Positions 47,658 to 53,827 of a stretch of DNA of 64,000 nucleotides are shown here, in pieces. The notes below the pieces were generated by a model. The model had not been told where the DNA came from. It worked only from the letters and a program-made list of their open reading frames with translations, and searched no databases. A program made the position numbers and the translations under genes. The stretch is taken from assembly GCF_011059185.1 (NCBI RefSeq), contig NZ_JAALFE010000002.1, positions 62,001 through 126,000 of the forward strand. The letters are read 5' to 3'. Source of the stretch: Paragemmobacter kunshanensis. GTDB lineage: Bacteria; Pseudomonadota; Alphaproteobacteria; Rhodobacterales; Rhodobacteraceae. Position 1 is the stretch's first letter. Every line of letters begins with the position of its first letter.

Positions 47658-47685
47658 TTGACACCCCGCGCCATCGCACTATGCA
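47658..47685 (+). promoter_or_regulatory. Promoter of the B12 uptake operon
   Basis: A perfect -35 TTGACA (47658-47663) is followed after a 16-bp spacer by TATGCA (47680-47685). The predicted transcript starts just before the cobalamin riboswitch, as expected. Confidence 0.7.
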
Positions 47686-47692
47686 GGGGGGG

Positions 47693-47852
47693 CCTTAGGT
47701 TCCGGCAGCGATGTCGGATGAAAAGGGAACGCGGTGCGAATCCGCGGCTGCCCCCGCAACTGTAAGCGGCGAGAGACGGCGACTAAGCCACTGGAATCAT
47801 TCCGGGAAGGCCGCCCGATCGCAGACCCGCAAGCCAGGAGACCTGCCAGGGA
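47693..47852 (+). promoter_or_regulatory. Cobalamin riboswitch
   Basis: The aptamer core is recognisable from AAAGGGAACGCGGTGCGAAT, CCGCGGCTGCCCCCGCAACTG and the conserved B12 box AAGCCAGGAGACCTGCC at 47831-47847. It lies in the leader of btuB. High intracellular adenosylcobalamin would fold the aptamer and shut off translation or transcription of the operon. The 5' and 3' limits are approximate. Confidence 0.94.
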
Positions 47853-47893
47853 GATCACCTTTCCGGTGCGCGGGGCGCGCGTCGGGTGGCGGG

Positions 47894-47994
47894 CCTTCCG
47901 CTTGTGGTGACACCCTCACCGTCGGCGGAAGGGGTGCGCAATCCTTTCCCAAGACAGATCATTGTCCGGGCCGTCAGGCCCGCCGGAAAGGAAG
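47894..47994 (+). promoter_or_regulatory. Riboswitch expression platform with SD-sequestering stem
   Basis: CCTTTCC (47943-47949) pairs with GGAAAGG (47985-47991), which is part of the btuB Shine-Dalgarno GGAAAGGAAG, and encloses the CGGGCC/GGCCCG hairpin (47967-47982). A separate 8-bp stem CCTTCCGC/GCGGAAGG lies at 47894-47932. There is no T-run. This suggests control of translation initiation rather than termination. Confidence 0.6.
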
Positions 47995-48001
47995 ATAGGC
48001 C

Positions 48002-49837
48002 ATGAAACGCCTTTCGATCTCCCTCGTCGCGCTGCTCGCAGCGCTGCCCGCCTTCGCGCAAACCACTGACAACGAAGAGATAATCCTCGATGACATCGTG
48101 GTCAGCCCCAACCGCACCGCCCTTGCCCTGAACCGCACCGGCAGCACCGTCACCGTCATCGACGAAGCCGCACTTGACCGCGCGGGGGATCAGTCGGTCG
48201 CCACGATCCTGTCGCGCATTCCCGGGGTCCAGGTCACCCGTCAGGGGCCGGCCGGAACGCAGGCGAAACTCCGCATCCGGGGCGCGACCCCGCGCTATAC
48301 GGCGGTCTATATCGACGGCGTCCGCGTCGATGATCCTACGGGAATCGCTACGGAATTCGATTTCGCGACGCTCCGCACATCTGACATTTCGCGCATCGAA
48401 GTGCTGCGCGGCTCGCAATCCGCGCTCTATGGCGGCTCGGCCATTGCCGGGGTGGTGAACATCACCACCAAACGCCCCGAAGCCCCCGGCTTCACGCAAT
48501 CCCTGGCGGTCGAGGCGGGCAGCTACGGCACGGTCGAAGGCTCTTACAGCCTTGGCTATTCCGATGATCGCTGGTCCGCCGCGCTGACCGTTTCGGTCTA
48601 TGAAAGCGAAGGCTTCTCCGCCTACGACACCCTTCCCCGCACCCCCGGGCTGGAAGATGACGGCCTCTCCAGCCAGCGGCTCAGCTTCTCCACCAGCTAC
48701 AAGGTCAATGACGTCCTTACCGTCGGCCTGAACGGCTTTGTCGCCGAATCCAGCGCCGATTACGATGATTTCGGGGCCGATGCCGCGAATGTCACCGATG
48801 GATCAGAGCGCAGCCTTTCCGCCTTCGCCACCTGGGATCTGGGTGCCACGCAGCACGAACTGCGCCTTTCGGGCTATTCCGTGGATCGCGATCTTGTCGA
48901 ACCGCTCGGTTCCGGCGGGTTCTTCTACGGCGACCGGCAGGCGATCAGCTATCAGGGCACGACCGAGATCTCCTCGGCCTTCACCCTGGTCTATGGGGCT
49001 GATGCAACACGCGATTCCGTCCGCACCTCTGCCCAGCCCGGCGGGCAGGATACCCAGGTGAACGGGGTATTTGCCCAAGGGATCTGGTCCCCCACCGGCG
49101 ATATCGACGTCTCTGCAACCCTGCGCTTCGACGAGAATTCCCGCTATGGCAGCTTCACCAGCGGCCGCATCGCGGCGGCCTGGCAGGCGGCCGAGGGCCT
49201 TACCCTGCGCGGCGCCGTCGCGCGCGGCTTCCGTGCGCCCTCGCTTTACGAACAATTCGGCGATACCCGCTTCGGCATCGCCGCCAACCCCAACCTGACC
49301 CCGGAACGCAGCAACAGCTATGAGATCGGCGTCGATTACGAATGGGCGGGCGGCGCGTCGGTTTCGGCCACGCTCTTCAAGCTGGATACCGAAAACGAGA
49401 TCGGCTTCGGGGCCAGCTACATCAACGTGGCCGGCATATCGAAGCGCAAGGGGATCGAGCTTGAAACCCGCCTGCCTGTCTTCGGCACTGCCGAACTTGG
49501 CCTTGCCTACAGCTATACCGATGCACGCCAGCCCAGCGGGGCAAGGATCGCGCGCGTTCCCCGGCATCTGCTGACCCTGTCACTGGATGGCGAACTGGCC
49601 GATCGCGTCACCGGCAGCCTTGCCATCCGCCATGTCGCAGACCGCCCGGCTGACGGTTTCCCGTCGCGGCCGATGCCCGATTTCACGGTGGTGGATGCCA
49701 AGATCGGCTATGCGCTTTCCGATACGGCGGAACTTTCCCTGCGCGTCGACAATCTCTTTGATGAAGACTACCAGGAGATTGCAGATTACGGCACCTCCGG
49801 TCGGGCGATCTATGTCGGCATTTCCGCGAAATTCTGA
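48002..49837 (+). CDS. btuB: TonB-dependent vitamin B12 outer-membrane receptor
   Basis: The 611-residue receptor brings cobalamin across the outer membrane using TonB energy. A signal peptide (RLSISLVALLAALPAFA) is followed by a TonB-box-like DDIVVSPNRT and the plug domain (IPGVQVTRQGPAGTQAKLRI, RIEVLRGSQSALYGGSAIAG). A long beta-barrel ends in a terminal aromatic (YVGISAKF), as outer-membrane proteins need. It sits directly behind a cobalamin riboswitch, which identifies the ligand. It overlaps the btuF gene by 26 bases. Confidence 0.95.
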   Translation: MKRLSISLVALLAALPAFAQTTDNEEIILDDIVVSPNRTALALNRTGSTVTVIDEAALDRAGDQSVATILSRIPGVQVTRQGPAGTQAKLRIRGATPRYTAVYIDGVRVDDPTGIATEFDFATLRTSDISRIEVLRGSQSALYGGSAIAGVVNITTKRPEAPGFTQSLAVEAGSYGTVEGSYSLGYSDDRWSAALTVSVYESEGFSAYDTLPRTPGLEDDGLSSQRLSFSTSYKVNDVLTVGLNGFVAESSADYDDFGADAANVTDGSERSLSAFATWDLGATQHELRLSGYSVDRDLVEPLGSGGFFYGDRQAISYQGTTEISSAFTLVYGADATRDSVRTSAQPGGQDTQVNGVFAQGIWSPTGDIDVSATLRFDENSRYGSFTSGRIAAAWQAAEGLTLRGAVARGFRAPSLYEQFGDTRFGIAANPNLTPERSNSYEIGVDYEWAGGASVSATLFKLDTENEIGFGASYINVAGISKRKGIELETRLPVFGTAELGLAYSYTDARQPSGARIARVPRHLLTLSLDGELADRVTGSLAIRHVADRPADGFPSRPMPDFTVVDAKIGYALSDTAELSLRVDNLFDEDYQEIADYGTSGRAIYVGISAKF

Positions 49838-50654
49838 ACCTTGCCTGATCGCCGCCCTTGCCCTTTGGGCCGGGGCGGCGGTTGCGGCGCCGCCCGAAAG
49901 GGTGGTGTCGATGAACCTCTGCACCGATCAGCTGGCCATGCTGCTGGCCGATCCCGGGCAGCTGATTTCCGTCAGCAACCTCGCGCTGGATCCGCTGTCC
50001 TCGGCGATGGTGGAAGAGGCGCAGGCCTATCCCGTCAACCGGGGCGGGGCAGAGCAGATATTTCTCATGCATCCTGATCTGGTTCTGGCAGGCACCTATA
50101 CCGCGCGGGCATCGGTCGATCTGCTGCGGGGGCTGGGGATCGAGGTGGTCCAGTTGCCCCCCGCCGACCGGCTGGAAGATGTCGCCGATCACATGCGCCA
50201 GATCGGCGCGGCGCTCGGGCGTCCCGAACGGGGCGAGGCGATGGCCCGCGAATTTGAAACCTCCCTCGCCTCCATCGGGCATGACGGCCCGGCTGCGACG
50301 GCCGCGATGTATTATCCCAATGGCTATACCGCCGGTTCCGGCACCCTGTCGGACCAGATCCTTTCGCTGACCGGCTTTCGCAATGTCGGGGCAGAGGCGG
50401 GGCTGACCGGCGGCGGCATCCTTCCGCTGGAACGTCTCGTCATGGCTGAACCGCAGGTCGTCGTCACCTCCACCCCCTATCCCGGCGCGTCGCGGTCCGA
50501 GGAAATCCTGTCCCATCCCGCGCTGCGCCAGTTGCGCGACGGCGCGGCACAGGCGCATGTCCGCGATGCCGACTGGGTCTGCGGCACCCCCCATCTTCTG
50601 AACGCCATCAGGACCATGGCCGATGCCCGCGCCGGGCTGGAAGGGCAGCAATGA
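49812..50654 (+). CDS. btuF: Periplasmic cobalamin-binding protein
   Basis: The 280-residue class-III binding protein carries an N-terminal signal (CLIAALALWAGAAVAA, cleaved before PPERVVS). It has the family start RVVSMNLCTDQLAMLLADPG, then ALGRPERGEAMAREFE and VVTSTPYPGASRSEEIL. Start 49812 lies inside the end of btuB (26-base overlap) and is the only ATG that gives a complete signal. It would deliver B12 to BtuCD. It ends ATGA into btuC, so translation is coupled. Confidence 0.88.
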   Translation: MSAFPRNSEPCLIAALALWAGAAVAAPPERVVSMNLCTDQLAMLLADPGQLISVSNLALDPLSSAMVEEAQAYPVNRGGAEQIFLMHPDLVLAGTYTARASVDLLRGLGIEVVQLPPADRLEDVADHMRQIGAALGRPERGEAMAREFETSLASIGHDGPAATAAMYYPNGYTAGSGTLSDQILSLTGFRNVGAEAGLTGGGILPLERLVMAEPQVVVTSTPYPGASRSEEILSHPALRQLRDGAAQAHVRDADWVCGTPHLLNAIRTMADARAGLEGQQ

Positions 50655-51643
50655 CCCTGCGCCACATTGCCCTGCTGCTCTTGTCGCTGCTTGTGATGGC
50701 GCTGTTTCTTGCCTCGTTGCTGATCGGCCCTGCGGCGCTTGGCCTGAAGCAGAGCGTCATGGCGCTTCTCGCTGGCGAAGGCGGCCCGGTCGCCCTGGTG
50801 ATGCAGGAGATCCGTCTGCCGCGCGCGCTGCTGGGGCTTCTGGTCGGGGCGGTGCTTGGCCTCTCGGGGGCCGCCATGCAGGGCTTCCTGCGCAATCCGC
50901 TGGCCGAACCCGGGCTGGTGGGCGTCTCCTCTTCTGCGGCCCTTGGCGCAGTGCTTTCGCTGCAGACCGGCCTGGCTGCCAGCTTTGCCCTTGCCCTGCC
51001 GCTTTCGGCATTGGCGGGTGCGGCGCTGGCGGTGTTGCTGGTTCTGGTCATGGCCGGCCCGCGCGGGGGGGCGCTGTCCCTGATCCTGGCCGGCATTGCC
51101 ATTTCCGCCCTTGCAGGGGCGCTGACATCGCTGGTGCTGAACCTGTCGCCCAATCCCTTTGCGGTGATGGAAATCGTCTATTGGATGATGGGCTCGCTGG
51201 CGGATCGGTCGATGACCCATGTCTGGCTGGCGCTGCCCTTCATGGCCATCGGCTGCGGCCTTCTGCTGGCCACGGGGCGGGGGCTGGATGCGCTGACGCT
51301 GGGCGAAGACGCGGCCCGCTCCATGGGGGTGGATCTGGCGCGACTGCGCCTGCTGATCGTCCTGGGCACGGCTTCGGCTGTCGGTGCATCGGTGGCGGTG
51401 GCGGGGGCGGTGGGCTTTGTCGGGCTGGTCATGCCGCATCTTCTGCGTCCGCTCGTCGGGGGCAGGCCATCGCATCTGCTGCCGGCGGCCGCGCTTGGCG
51501 GGGCGGCCATGGTGCTGACGGCAGATATCGCCGTGCGGCTGATCGCCCCGGACCAGGATCTGAAGCTGGGCGTGCTGACAGCGCTGGTGGGGGCGCCCTT
51601 CTTCCTGCACCTTCTGTGGCGGATGCGGGGGCTGGAGGCATGA
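50651..51643 (+). CDS. btuC: FecCD-family ABC permease for cobalamin
   Basis: The 330-residue inner-membrane permease has about ten hydrophobic helices, the FecCD signature GLSGAAMQGFLRNPLAEPGLVG, and the late motif FVGLVMPHLLRPLVGGRPSH that contacts the ATPase. Its start overlaps the btuF stop and its stop overlaps the btuD start (both ATGA). The ligand is assigned as B12 from the riboswitch and CbiZ; similar permeases carry ferric siderophores. Confidence 0.92.
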   Translation: MTLRHIALLLLSLLVMALFLASLLIGPAALGLKQSVMALLAGEGGPVALVMQEIRLPRALLGLLVGAVLGLSGAAMQGFLRNPLAEPGLVGVSSSAALGAVLSLQTGLAASFALALPLSALAGAALAVLLVLVMAGPRGGALSLILAGIAISALAGALTSLVLNLSPNPFAVMEIVYWMMGSLADRSMTHVWLALPFMAIGCGLLLATGRGLDALTLGEDAARSMGVDLARLRLLIVLGTASAVGASVAVAGAVGFVGLVMPHLLRPLVGGRPSHLLPAAALGGAAMVLTADIAVRLIAPDQDLKLGVLTALVGAPFFLHLLWRMRGLEA

Positions 51644-52392
51644 CGCTGTTCTCGCTGGATCATCTGTCGGTCCGCCGCGCCGGGAAATCCGTCGTCGATG
51701 ACGTGACCCTGTCGGTGCAGGCGGGGGAATGCGTCGGCCTGATCGGGCCGAACGGCGCGGGCAAGACAACGCTGATGCGGGCGGCGCTGGGCCTGCTGCC
51801 GCATGAAGGATCATCGAACCTTGCCCGCCTTCCCCTGGGCGAAAGGGCACGGCAGGCGGCCTTTCTGCCGCAAAACCGCGATATCCACTGGCCCGTCACC
51901 GTCGATGCCGTGGTGGCGCTTGGACGCGCGGCCCAGGGATCGGGCAAGCTTCACGCCGAAGACCGCCGCGCCATTGACCGCGCGCTTGCGCGCATGGGCC
52001 TTGCCGATTACCGCGACCGGATCGCCACCGCCCTGTCGGGCGGGGAACAGGCCCGCGTCCTGATCGCCCGCGCGCTGGCACAGGAAACCCCGCTTCTCCT
52101 GGCCGACGAACCCGTGGCGGGCCTCGATCCCGAGGCGCAGTTGCGCACCATGCAGGTCTTTGCCGATCTTGCGCGGGAAGGGCGGGGGATCGTTGTGTCG
52201 ATCCATGATCTGGGCCTTGCCGCGCGGTTCTGCACGCGGCTTGTCGTGCTGCATCATGGGCGCGTCGTCCTTGACGCCCCGCCGCGCGAGGTTCTGTCGG
52301 ATCCCCGCCTGTCCGAGGTTTTCGGCATACGCGGCTTTCTGGCCGACACGCCTGATGGCCCGGTCTTCCAGCCGATGGCGGTGACGCGATGA
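51640..52392 (+). CDS. btuD: ABC transporter ATP-binding protein for cobalamin
   Basis: The 250-residue ATPase has Walker A GPNGAGKTT, Q-loop FLPQNRDIHW, signature LSGGEQAR, Walker B LLLADEPVAGLDPE and the H-loop SIHDLGL. The ATG at 51640 follows GGAGGC and overlaps the btuC stop by 4 bases. The frame stays open to 50623, but that is the other frame of btuC. It is the third transporter gene and overlaps cbiZ by ATGA. Confidence 0.93.
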   Translation: MTLFSLDHLSVRRAGKSVVDDVTLSVQAGECVGLIGPNGAGKTTLMRAALGLLPHEGSSNLARLPLGERARQAAFLPQNRDIHWPVTVDAVVALGRAAQGSGKLHAEDRRAIDRALARMGLADYRDRIATALSGGEQARVLIARALAQETPLLLADEPVAGLDPEAQLRTMQVFADLAREGRGIVVSIHDLGLAARFCTRLVVLHHGRVVLDAPPREVLSDPRLSEVFGIRGFLADTPDGPVFQPMAVTR

Positions 52393-53051
52393 TCTCGGCC
52401 CGGCTCGCGCGGCCCTGGCTTGTGGCGGAATTCGCCAGCCTCCTGCGCGTGCTCAGCTGGGCCCCGTTCCGCCCCGGATTCGTGCAGGCGGAACGTGTCC
52501 TCTGGCGTGAGGTGCGCAATGCCGATCTCTCGCAGGATTTCGATGTCGACGCCTGGTTCGCGCGGGAAATGCTGCAATGGCCCGATGCCGTCGGGATGCT
52601 GACATCGCGCGATATCGGCACCTTTCGCCTGGCCGAGGCGCGGGTAGAGGGCGTGCAGGCCACCTGCCTTGCGACGGTCGGCCTGTCAAATGCCGAAGCA
52701 GTCGGCCGTCGCCGCCCCTATCATTCCGCCGATTGGGGAACGATCAACCTCTGCACCGCGGTTGATGCCCCCCTGACCGAAGCCGCGCAGATCGAGGCGC
52801 TTTCGATCGCGGTCGAGGCGCGCACGGCTGCCGTGATCGAGGCGGGCCTCACCCTGTCCACGGGTCTTGCCTCGGGCACCGGAACGGATTGCGCGGCCCT
52901 TGCCTGCCCCCCGGGTGACGGGCGCTATGCCGGCCTGCATACCGCCGTGGGCGAGGCGATCGGTGCCGCGACCCGTGCCGCCATCGCGACGGCCGCCGCC
53001 GACTGGATGGTCTGGCGCCGCGAAGAGGAAGACCGGAGACGCCAGAGATGA
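52389..53051 (+). CDS. cbiZ: Adenosylcobinamide amidohydrolase
   Basis: CbiZ removes the lower-ligand arm from (pseudo)cobamides to give adenosylcobyric acid, allowing cells to remodel imported corrinoids. The 220-residue protein has the family pattern VQATCLATVGLSNAEAVGRR, ADWGTINLCTAV, GTGTDCAALACPPGDG and YAGLHTAVGEAIG. Characterised CbiZ in Rhodobacter sphaeroides destroys pseudocobalamin preferentially. It overlaps btuD by 4 bases and is followed by another overlap into the last gene, so transport and remodelling are one transcript. Confidence 0.92.
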   Translation: MISARLARPWLVAEFASLLRVLSWAPFRPGFVQAERVLWREVRNADLSQDFDVDAWFAREMLQWPDAVGMLTSRDIGTFRLAEARVEGVQATCLATVGLSNAEAVGRRRPYHSADWGTINLCTAVDAPLTEAAQIEALSIAVEARTAAVIEAGLTLSTGLASGTGTDCAALACPPGDGRYAGLHTAVGEAIGAATRAAIATAAADWMVWRREEEDRRRQR

Positions 53052-53827
53052 CCTTTTCCCGGATCGTCTGCCTGACGGAAGAAACCGTCGAGACGCTGTA
53101 TCTGCTGGGGCAATCCCACCGGATCGTGGGTGTCACGGGCTATGCCGTCCGCCCGCCGCAGGTGCGGCGCGAAAAACCGCGCGTGGGGGCCTTCACTTCG
53201 GCCGATGTCGAAAAGATCCGATCGCTTGCGCCTGATCTGGTGCTGACCTTCTCGGATCTGCAGGCCCCCATCGCCGCCGACCTGATCCGCGAAGGGATCG
53301 AGGTTCACGCCTTCAATCAAAGAACCGTCGCAGGCATCCTTGCCATGATCCGGACCTGCGGCGCGCTGACCGGCGTGCCCGAACAGGCCGACACACTCGC
53401 CTGCGGCTATGAGGAACGCCTTGCCCGGATTGCCGCGACCCATCGCCCCAACCGGCCCGTTGTCCTGTTCGAGGAATGGGACGAGCCGCTGATTTCGGGC
53501 ATCGGCTGGGTATCGGAACTGATCGCGATTGCGGGCGGGCAGGATGCCTTTCCGGAACTGGCCGCCTGCAAGGCCGCGAAGGACAGGATCCTGACGCCCG
53601 ATCAGGTGATCCCGCGCGCGCCGGACATCATCCTGGCCTCATGGTGCGGCAAGAAGGTGGTGCCCGCCCGCATCGCCGCCAGACCGGGATGGGATGTGCT
53701 GCCGGCGGTGCGGAACAACCGCATCCACGAGATCAAGTCGCCCCTCATCCTGCAGCCCGGCCCCGCCGCCCTGACCGATGGCCTGGATGCCATCCTGCAG
53801 GCGCTCTGGGGCAGGGCAGAGGCGTAG
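53048..53827 (+). CDS. BtuF-like cobalamin-binding protein without signal peptide
   Basis: The 259-residue protein has the class-III binding fold (SRIVCLTEETVETLYLLGQS, GVTGYAVRPPQVRREKPRVG, LAPDLVLTFSDLQ, VVLFEEWDEPLISGIGWVSE). It starts MTFSRIVCLT with no hydrophobic leader, so it should stay in the cytoplasm. It follows cbiZ with an ATGA overlap (53048/53051). It may bind corrinoid next to CbiZ or act as a sensor. The relation to the exported BtuF is family-level, not a recent duplicate. Confidence 0.87.
   Translation: MTFSRIVCLTEETVETLYLLGQSHRIVGVTGYAVRPPQVRREKPRVGAFTSADVEKIRSLAPDLVLTFSDLQAPIAADLIREGIEVHAFNQRTVAGILAMIRTCGALTGVPEQADTLACGYEERLARIAATHRPNRPVVLFEEWDEPLISGIGWVSELIAIAGGQDAFPELAACKAAKDRILTPDQVIPRAPDIILASWCGKKVVPARIAARPGWDVLPAVRNNRIHEIKSPLILQPGPAALTDGLDAILQALWGRAEA

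Follow-up and report, generated by a model that had tools for sequence, protein, structure and literature searches.

We analysed a stretch of 64,000 nucleotides from Paragemmobacter kunshanensis (contig NZ_JAALFE010000002.1, positions 62,001 to 126,000 of the forward strand; hereafter the window), in which a cobalamin riboswitch leads a run of predicted B12 import genes, a predicted cbiZ and, in last place, a second BtuF-like gene, whose product we call BtuF2. The features of this operon, in window coordinates, are as follows.

47680-47864, + strand: cobalamin riboswitch aptamer RF00174 (cmscan 142.1 bits, E 7.5e-36, gathering cut-off 31.5).
47943-47991, + strand: candidate expression platform, where the minimum-free-energy fold joins CCTTTCC (47943) to GGAAAGG in the ribosome-binding site of btuB (47983-47991).
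48002-49837, + strand: btuB, TonB-dependent B12 receptor (PF00593 and PF07715; barrel and plug).
49812-50654, + strand: btuF (product BtuF1), periplasmic binding protein with a signal-like N-terminus (PF01497, Peripla_BP_2, 68.9 bits).
50651-51643, + strand: btuC, permease (PF01032, FecCD, E 8e-82).
51640-52392, + strand: btuD, ATPase (PF00005, ABC_tran, E 2.5e-25).
52389-53051, + strand: cbiZ, predicted adenosylcobinamide/cobamide amidohydrolase (PF01955, 156.1 bits, cut-off 27).
53048-53827, + strand: BtuF2, BtuF-like protein without a leader, predicted to bind corrinoids in the cytoplasm (PF01497, 134.1 bits).

The RF00174 match, the Pfam families and the coordinates agree with the map given in the original prediction, an earlier reading of this DNA, which also held that the genes are joined by overlaps: one of 26 bp is found between btuB and btuF (with ATG 49812 taken as the btuF start) and 4-bp ATGA overlaps at the other four junctions. 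By Pfam match and coordinates, an exported binding protein, a TonB receptor, a FecCD permease and an ATP-binding cassette (ABC) ATPase all lie in a single unit, and import and CbiZ are coupled under one riboswitch, as had been proposed. From the riboswitch and the gene families, BtuBFCD of the window is probably a B12 importer; btuB scored 259.6 bits against TIGR01779, under the model cut-off of 599.7. Two stretches are complementary to CCGGAAAGG (47983), the ribosome-binding site of btuB: CCTTTCCGG (47858), where the aptamer has its 3' end, and CCTTTCC (47943). Coverage of the site by CCTTTCC would fit a candidate translational OFF switch. The promoter that had been claimed upstream could not be confirmed: TTGACA is present at 47658, yet no sigma-70 promoter pair passed a consensus scan, a result to be read with the fact that promoters of the host's group often differ from this consensus.

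BtuF2 had been described as BtuF-like, devoid of a signal and cytoplasmic, and this description stands. The frame upstream of ATG 53048, back to the stop at 52916, reads RALCRPAYRRGRGDRCRDPCRHRDGRRRLDGLAPRRGRPETPE; it is Arg-rich and contains no hydrophobic segment, which rules out a leader hidden behind an upstream start, the objection that the original prediction had raised against itself. In relatives, both from the named set and among whole-genome loci, the protein opens with a short run of residues like MRRFPPERIVCLTEE, and in many of them a stop codon lies 3-12 codons before the start. A signal peptide was absent from every BtuF2 member checked, the window copy included. On this evidence BtuF2 is predicted to stay in the cytoplasm. 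An origin as a recent duplicate of the local btuF was ruled out by their identity (27% over 142 residues, half the length). The only two Peripla_BP_2 proteins of the genome, BtuF1 and BtuF2, are both encoded within this operon, which leaves BtuF2 without a further importer of this class that it could serve.

The AlphaFold2 model of BtuF2 (pLDDT 94.2) has the class III binding-protein fold and aligns with ligand-bound E. coli BtuF (1n4a) over 240 residues (Z 25.7, root-mean-square deviation 2.7). The pocket of E. coli BtuF is formed by Y50, W66, W85, F162, F168 and W196, the corrin turns its lower face to the N-lobe, and the W66F mutant of this BtuF binds cobalamin (Cbl) at 8 nM and cobinamide (Cbi) at 30 nM (PMC5269720). 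Y32, F49 and F68 of BtuF2 match the N-lobe residues Y50, W66 and W85, respectively, and are nearly invariant in the family. BtuF contacts BtuC through a docking Glu (E72 by E. coli precursor numbering; Glu74 as printed in PMC3741162), which BtuF1 of the window keeps and which is present in 16/16 BtuF1 sequences; at the same position BtuF2 sequences have Pro in 39/48 and 30/41, with Glu in 2 of each set, the window copy being one of the two. BtuF2 thus resembles the E. coli and Vibrio BtuF structures (1n4a, 1n2z, 5ysc) in its fold, in three pocket aromatics of the N-lobe (Y/F/F) and in its linkage to BtuCD, and differs from them in lacking a signal peptide and a conserved docking Glu in the N-lobe, and in having a different C-lobe cleft (FEEWD, SWCGK) and two invariant cysteines.

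That BtuF2 might be a second periplasmic BtuF, exported without a classical signal, would suit its place beside BtuCD and its shared fold; we find this scarcely credible, given that the leader is absent in every member checked, that a signal-bearing BtuF is already present in the operons or elsewhere in the genome, and that the docking Glu is lost in most members.

Residues C8, E11, E12, D70, E142, E143, W144, W199 and C200 of BtuF2 are conserved down to ~55% identity, and Cys8 and Cys200 are invariant over that range. A 38%-identical homologue (L179), a possible outgroup, keeps Cys200 and the EEW motif and has Ala at the Cys8 position. The invariance of the two cysteines, together with that of E11, E12, D70, E142, E143 and W199, would accord with a protein that chemically processes the corrinoid before adenosylation, for example by removing or exchanging the upper ligand, and the model, as judged from secondary structure, puts the cysteines at or beside the cleft loops. 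The cysteines could instead be structural, and no enzyme with a BtuF-type fold is known to us; chemical processing is in our judgement unlikely. A precedent is BtuM, a corrinoid-uptake protein with a different fold that sits in the membrane; it likewise has an invariant cysteine, which serves as cobalt ligand, and it decyanates B12 (PMC6072759). A more specific form, in which BtuF2 would be a cytoplasmic B12 chaperone that strips the upper ligand with its two invariant cysteines, a functional counterpart of human CblC on a binding-protein fold, is more doubtful still.

To place BtuF2 in its genomic context, we used 23 order-level loci besides its own, taken from an evenly drawn genome sample. 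BtuC and BtuD lie directly upstream on the same strand in 15 of these, six lack BtuCD and have their own cobalamin riboswitch upstream, and two have neither. Among the 15 BtuCD-linked loci, one contains cbiZ. In eight of the Rhodobacterales loci (L128, L129, L131, L133-L136 and L140) ExbB and ExbD follow downstream of BtuF2, so these units also carry the energy-coupling genes for an outer-membrane receptor. A set of named genera, picked by similarity and hence biased, adds Thioclava and Frigidibacter, with btuBFCD-BtuF2 and no cbiZ, and Marivita, with riboswitch-btuCD-BtuF2 and a btuB-btuF pair elsewhere in the genome. BtuF2 was considered as the sole binding protein of Marivita and rejected, since these genomes encode a signal-bearing BtuF next to BtuB at another locus (seen in 3 of 4 genomes). 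In a class-wide sample of 289 genomes, 2 of 17 further BtuF2 loci are preceded by a same-strand riboswitch; in a few others a riboswitch or B12-transport genes are close by but differently arranged. Betaproteobacteria-type loci (~53-58% identity) repeat this linkage: they are arranged as riboswitch-btuB-BtuF2-btuF, two of them continue with btuC, and two have an extra gene beside BtuF2 between btuB and btuF, a CobB-like gene ahead of BtuF2 (L175) or a CobU-like gene after it (L176), both named by reading their sequences. Members of the gammaproteobacterial (Xanthomonas) type are solitary genes close to pdxH or aroB.

Our preferred explanation, held with moderate confidence, is that BtuF2 would be a cytoplasmic acceptor of corrinoid for B12 released by BtuCD, with CbiZ as an optional extra; cysteine chemistry may come in addition. 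What the analysis shows is how the operon is built, that BtuF2 has no leader, which fold it has, that its cleft is conserved, that most members have lost the docking residue of the N-lobe, and that the gene is linked to BtuCD and to riboswitches. The locus would act as a B12-repressible import operon made up of the cobalamin riboswitch, BtuB, BtuF and BtuCD, in which CbiZ would strip the lower-ligand loop from unusable cobamides. BtuF2, a binding-protein fold kept in the cytoplasm, would take the corrinoid as BtuCD releases it inside and hold it for the next cytoplasmic enzymes, namely those of adenosylation, of CbiZ or CobU/CobB steps, and the B12 enzymes; CbiZ would be one optional client. 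Corrinoid binding by BtuF2, the direction of the handover and the identity of the clients are what we infer from the observations above.

Several observations weigh against this explanation. The BtuF2 fold is equally near to heme-binding proteins (Z 25.8), and the C-lobe aromatics of BtuF (F162, F168 and W196) are not kept. For these two reasons the ligand is taken from the genomic context. The window BtuF2 itself has Glu at the docking position (E55), and many alphaproteobacterial BtuF2 genes, among them those of Bradyrhizobium, Methylobacterium and Paracoccus in the named set, are solitary and lack a neighbouring riboswitch or transporter. To our knowledge, no protein of this kind has been described in the B12 import system of E. 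coli, so an acceptor is not generally required. The structural match to heme-binding proteins would also suit a BtuF2 that binds something else, such as heme or cobalt, and sits in the operon for another reason; cobalamin riboswitches of its own and BtuCD neighbours across classes, and the lack of a further class III binding protein in the P. kunshanensis genome, make that highly improbable.

The close linkage to BtuCD, a binding fold that is not exported and the lack of any enzymatic partner constant over loci could also be expected of a cytoplasmic sensor, which might gate the importer from the cytoplasmic side, by trans-inhibition of BtuCD at high corrinoid levels, or modulate a regulator. 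Feedback is already supplied by the riboswitch, most members have lost the N-lobe residue that contacts BtuC, and some members stand alone without a transporter beside them; we regard a sensor as improbable.

The original prediction had tied BtuF2 to CbiZ, and this held within the genus and failed beyond it. Within the genus, cbiZ is present in 9 of 19 genomes and BtuF2 adjoins it in 9/9, an adjacency of limited weight because those nine genomes share one operon. Genome G006 has an intact BtuF2 (L011) without riboswitch, btuBFCD or cbiZ, between unchanged flanks (amidase, small membrane protein, pseudouridine synthase); either the operon was lost except for its last gene, or it was gained upstream of BtuF2. 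BtuF2 is present without any cbiZ in the genome in G006 and G022, and cbiZ without BtuF2 in G023 and in 37 of the 40 cbiZ genomes of the order. Across 245 genomes of the order, BtuF2 is found in 24, CbiZ in 40 and both in 3, against 3.9 expected. The survey of neighbourhoods that had been suggested as a check likewise returned cbiZ in just one of the 23 other BtuF2 units of the order (G071). At class level, with the own genome removed, CbiZ is found in 3/17 BtuF2 genomes versus 3/271 others (p=0.003), a modest association; in these genomes BtuF2 and CbiZ are encoded on separate contigs, one genus supplies two of the three genomes, and a shared B12-salvage lifestyle is possible.

These counts bear on the proposal that BtuF2 is a dedicated partner of CbiZ, passing imported cobamides to it or making it selective. 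The ATGA overlap with cbiZ in the window, the adjacency in all nine cbiZ genomes of the genus, in G071 and in an Aestuariivita metagenome-assembled genome (MAG), and the class-wide association speak for such a partner; chance-level co-occurrence in the order, the rarity of cbiZ among its other units, the intact BtuF2 without cbiZ in G006 and G022, and beta- and gammaproteobacterial members that stand alone or among other B12 genes speak against it. We consider a dedicated partner very unlikely. Beyond the genus it is not supported, and a CbiZ-specific partnership was rejected there on co-occurrence (genus, order and class) and adjacency. Because BtuF2 travels with BtuCD and with cobalamin riboswitches, it is better explained by a general corrinoid role than by partnership with CbiZ.

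The operon type, with cbiZ beside transport genes, is already known (PMC7733943). In the literature, some cbiZ genes are said to adjoin transport genes and a coupling to uptake is suggested. The remodelling CbiZ of R. sphaeroides (Gray and Escalante-Semerena 2009, as cited in PMC7733943) belongs to the same Pfam family as the predicted CbiZ of the window; a difference from the R. sphaeroides system is that btuBFCD and BtuF2 here all lie in one riboswitch-led unit. The genome encodes CbiB, so cobyric acid from CbiZ could be rebuilt into a cobamide.

Members of the BtuF2 family on plasmids (59-72% identical) are annotated by NCBI as 'cobalamin-binding protein', an annotation that is a name only, and the papers found describe neither their function nor their location. 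Literature searches, with most subscription journals outside their reach, likewise returned no description of a BtuF that lacks a leader or stays in the cytoplasm. As a family linked to riboswitches and devoid of leaders, BtuF2 looks undescribed, though NCBI names some of its members. Little is known of the reception and transport of B12 within bacterial cells once BtuCD has released it, and BtuF2, conserved in Alpha-, Beta- and Gammaproteobacteria and linked to riboswitches, offers a concrete candidate, open to purification and direct testing. Annotation of binding proteins should not default to a periplasmic reading.

Two further observations concern loci outside the window. On an Ideonella dechloratans plasmid (NZ_CP088082.1, L168), a BtuF2 homologue lies in one co-directional cluster with icmF (an adenosylcobalamin (AdoCbl)-dependent isobutyryl-CoA mutase fusion) and an acyl-CoA dehydrogenase gene. 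The P. kunshanensis genome contains a second cobalamin riboswitch (L002) ahead of another gene, which, judged from its sequence, we take to encode a CbtA-type cobalt transporter.

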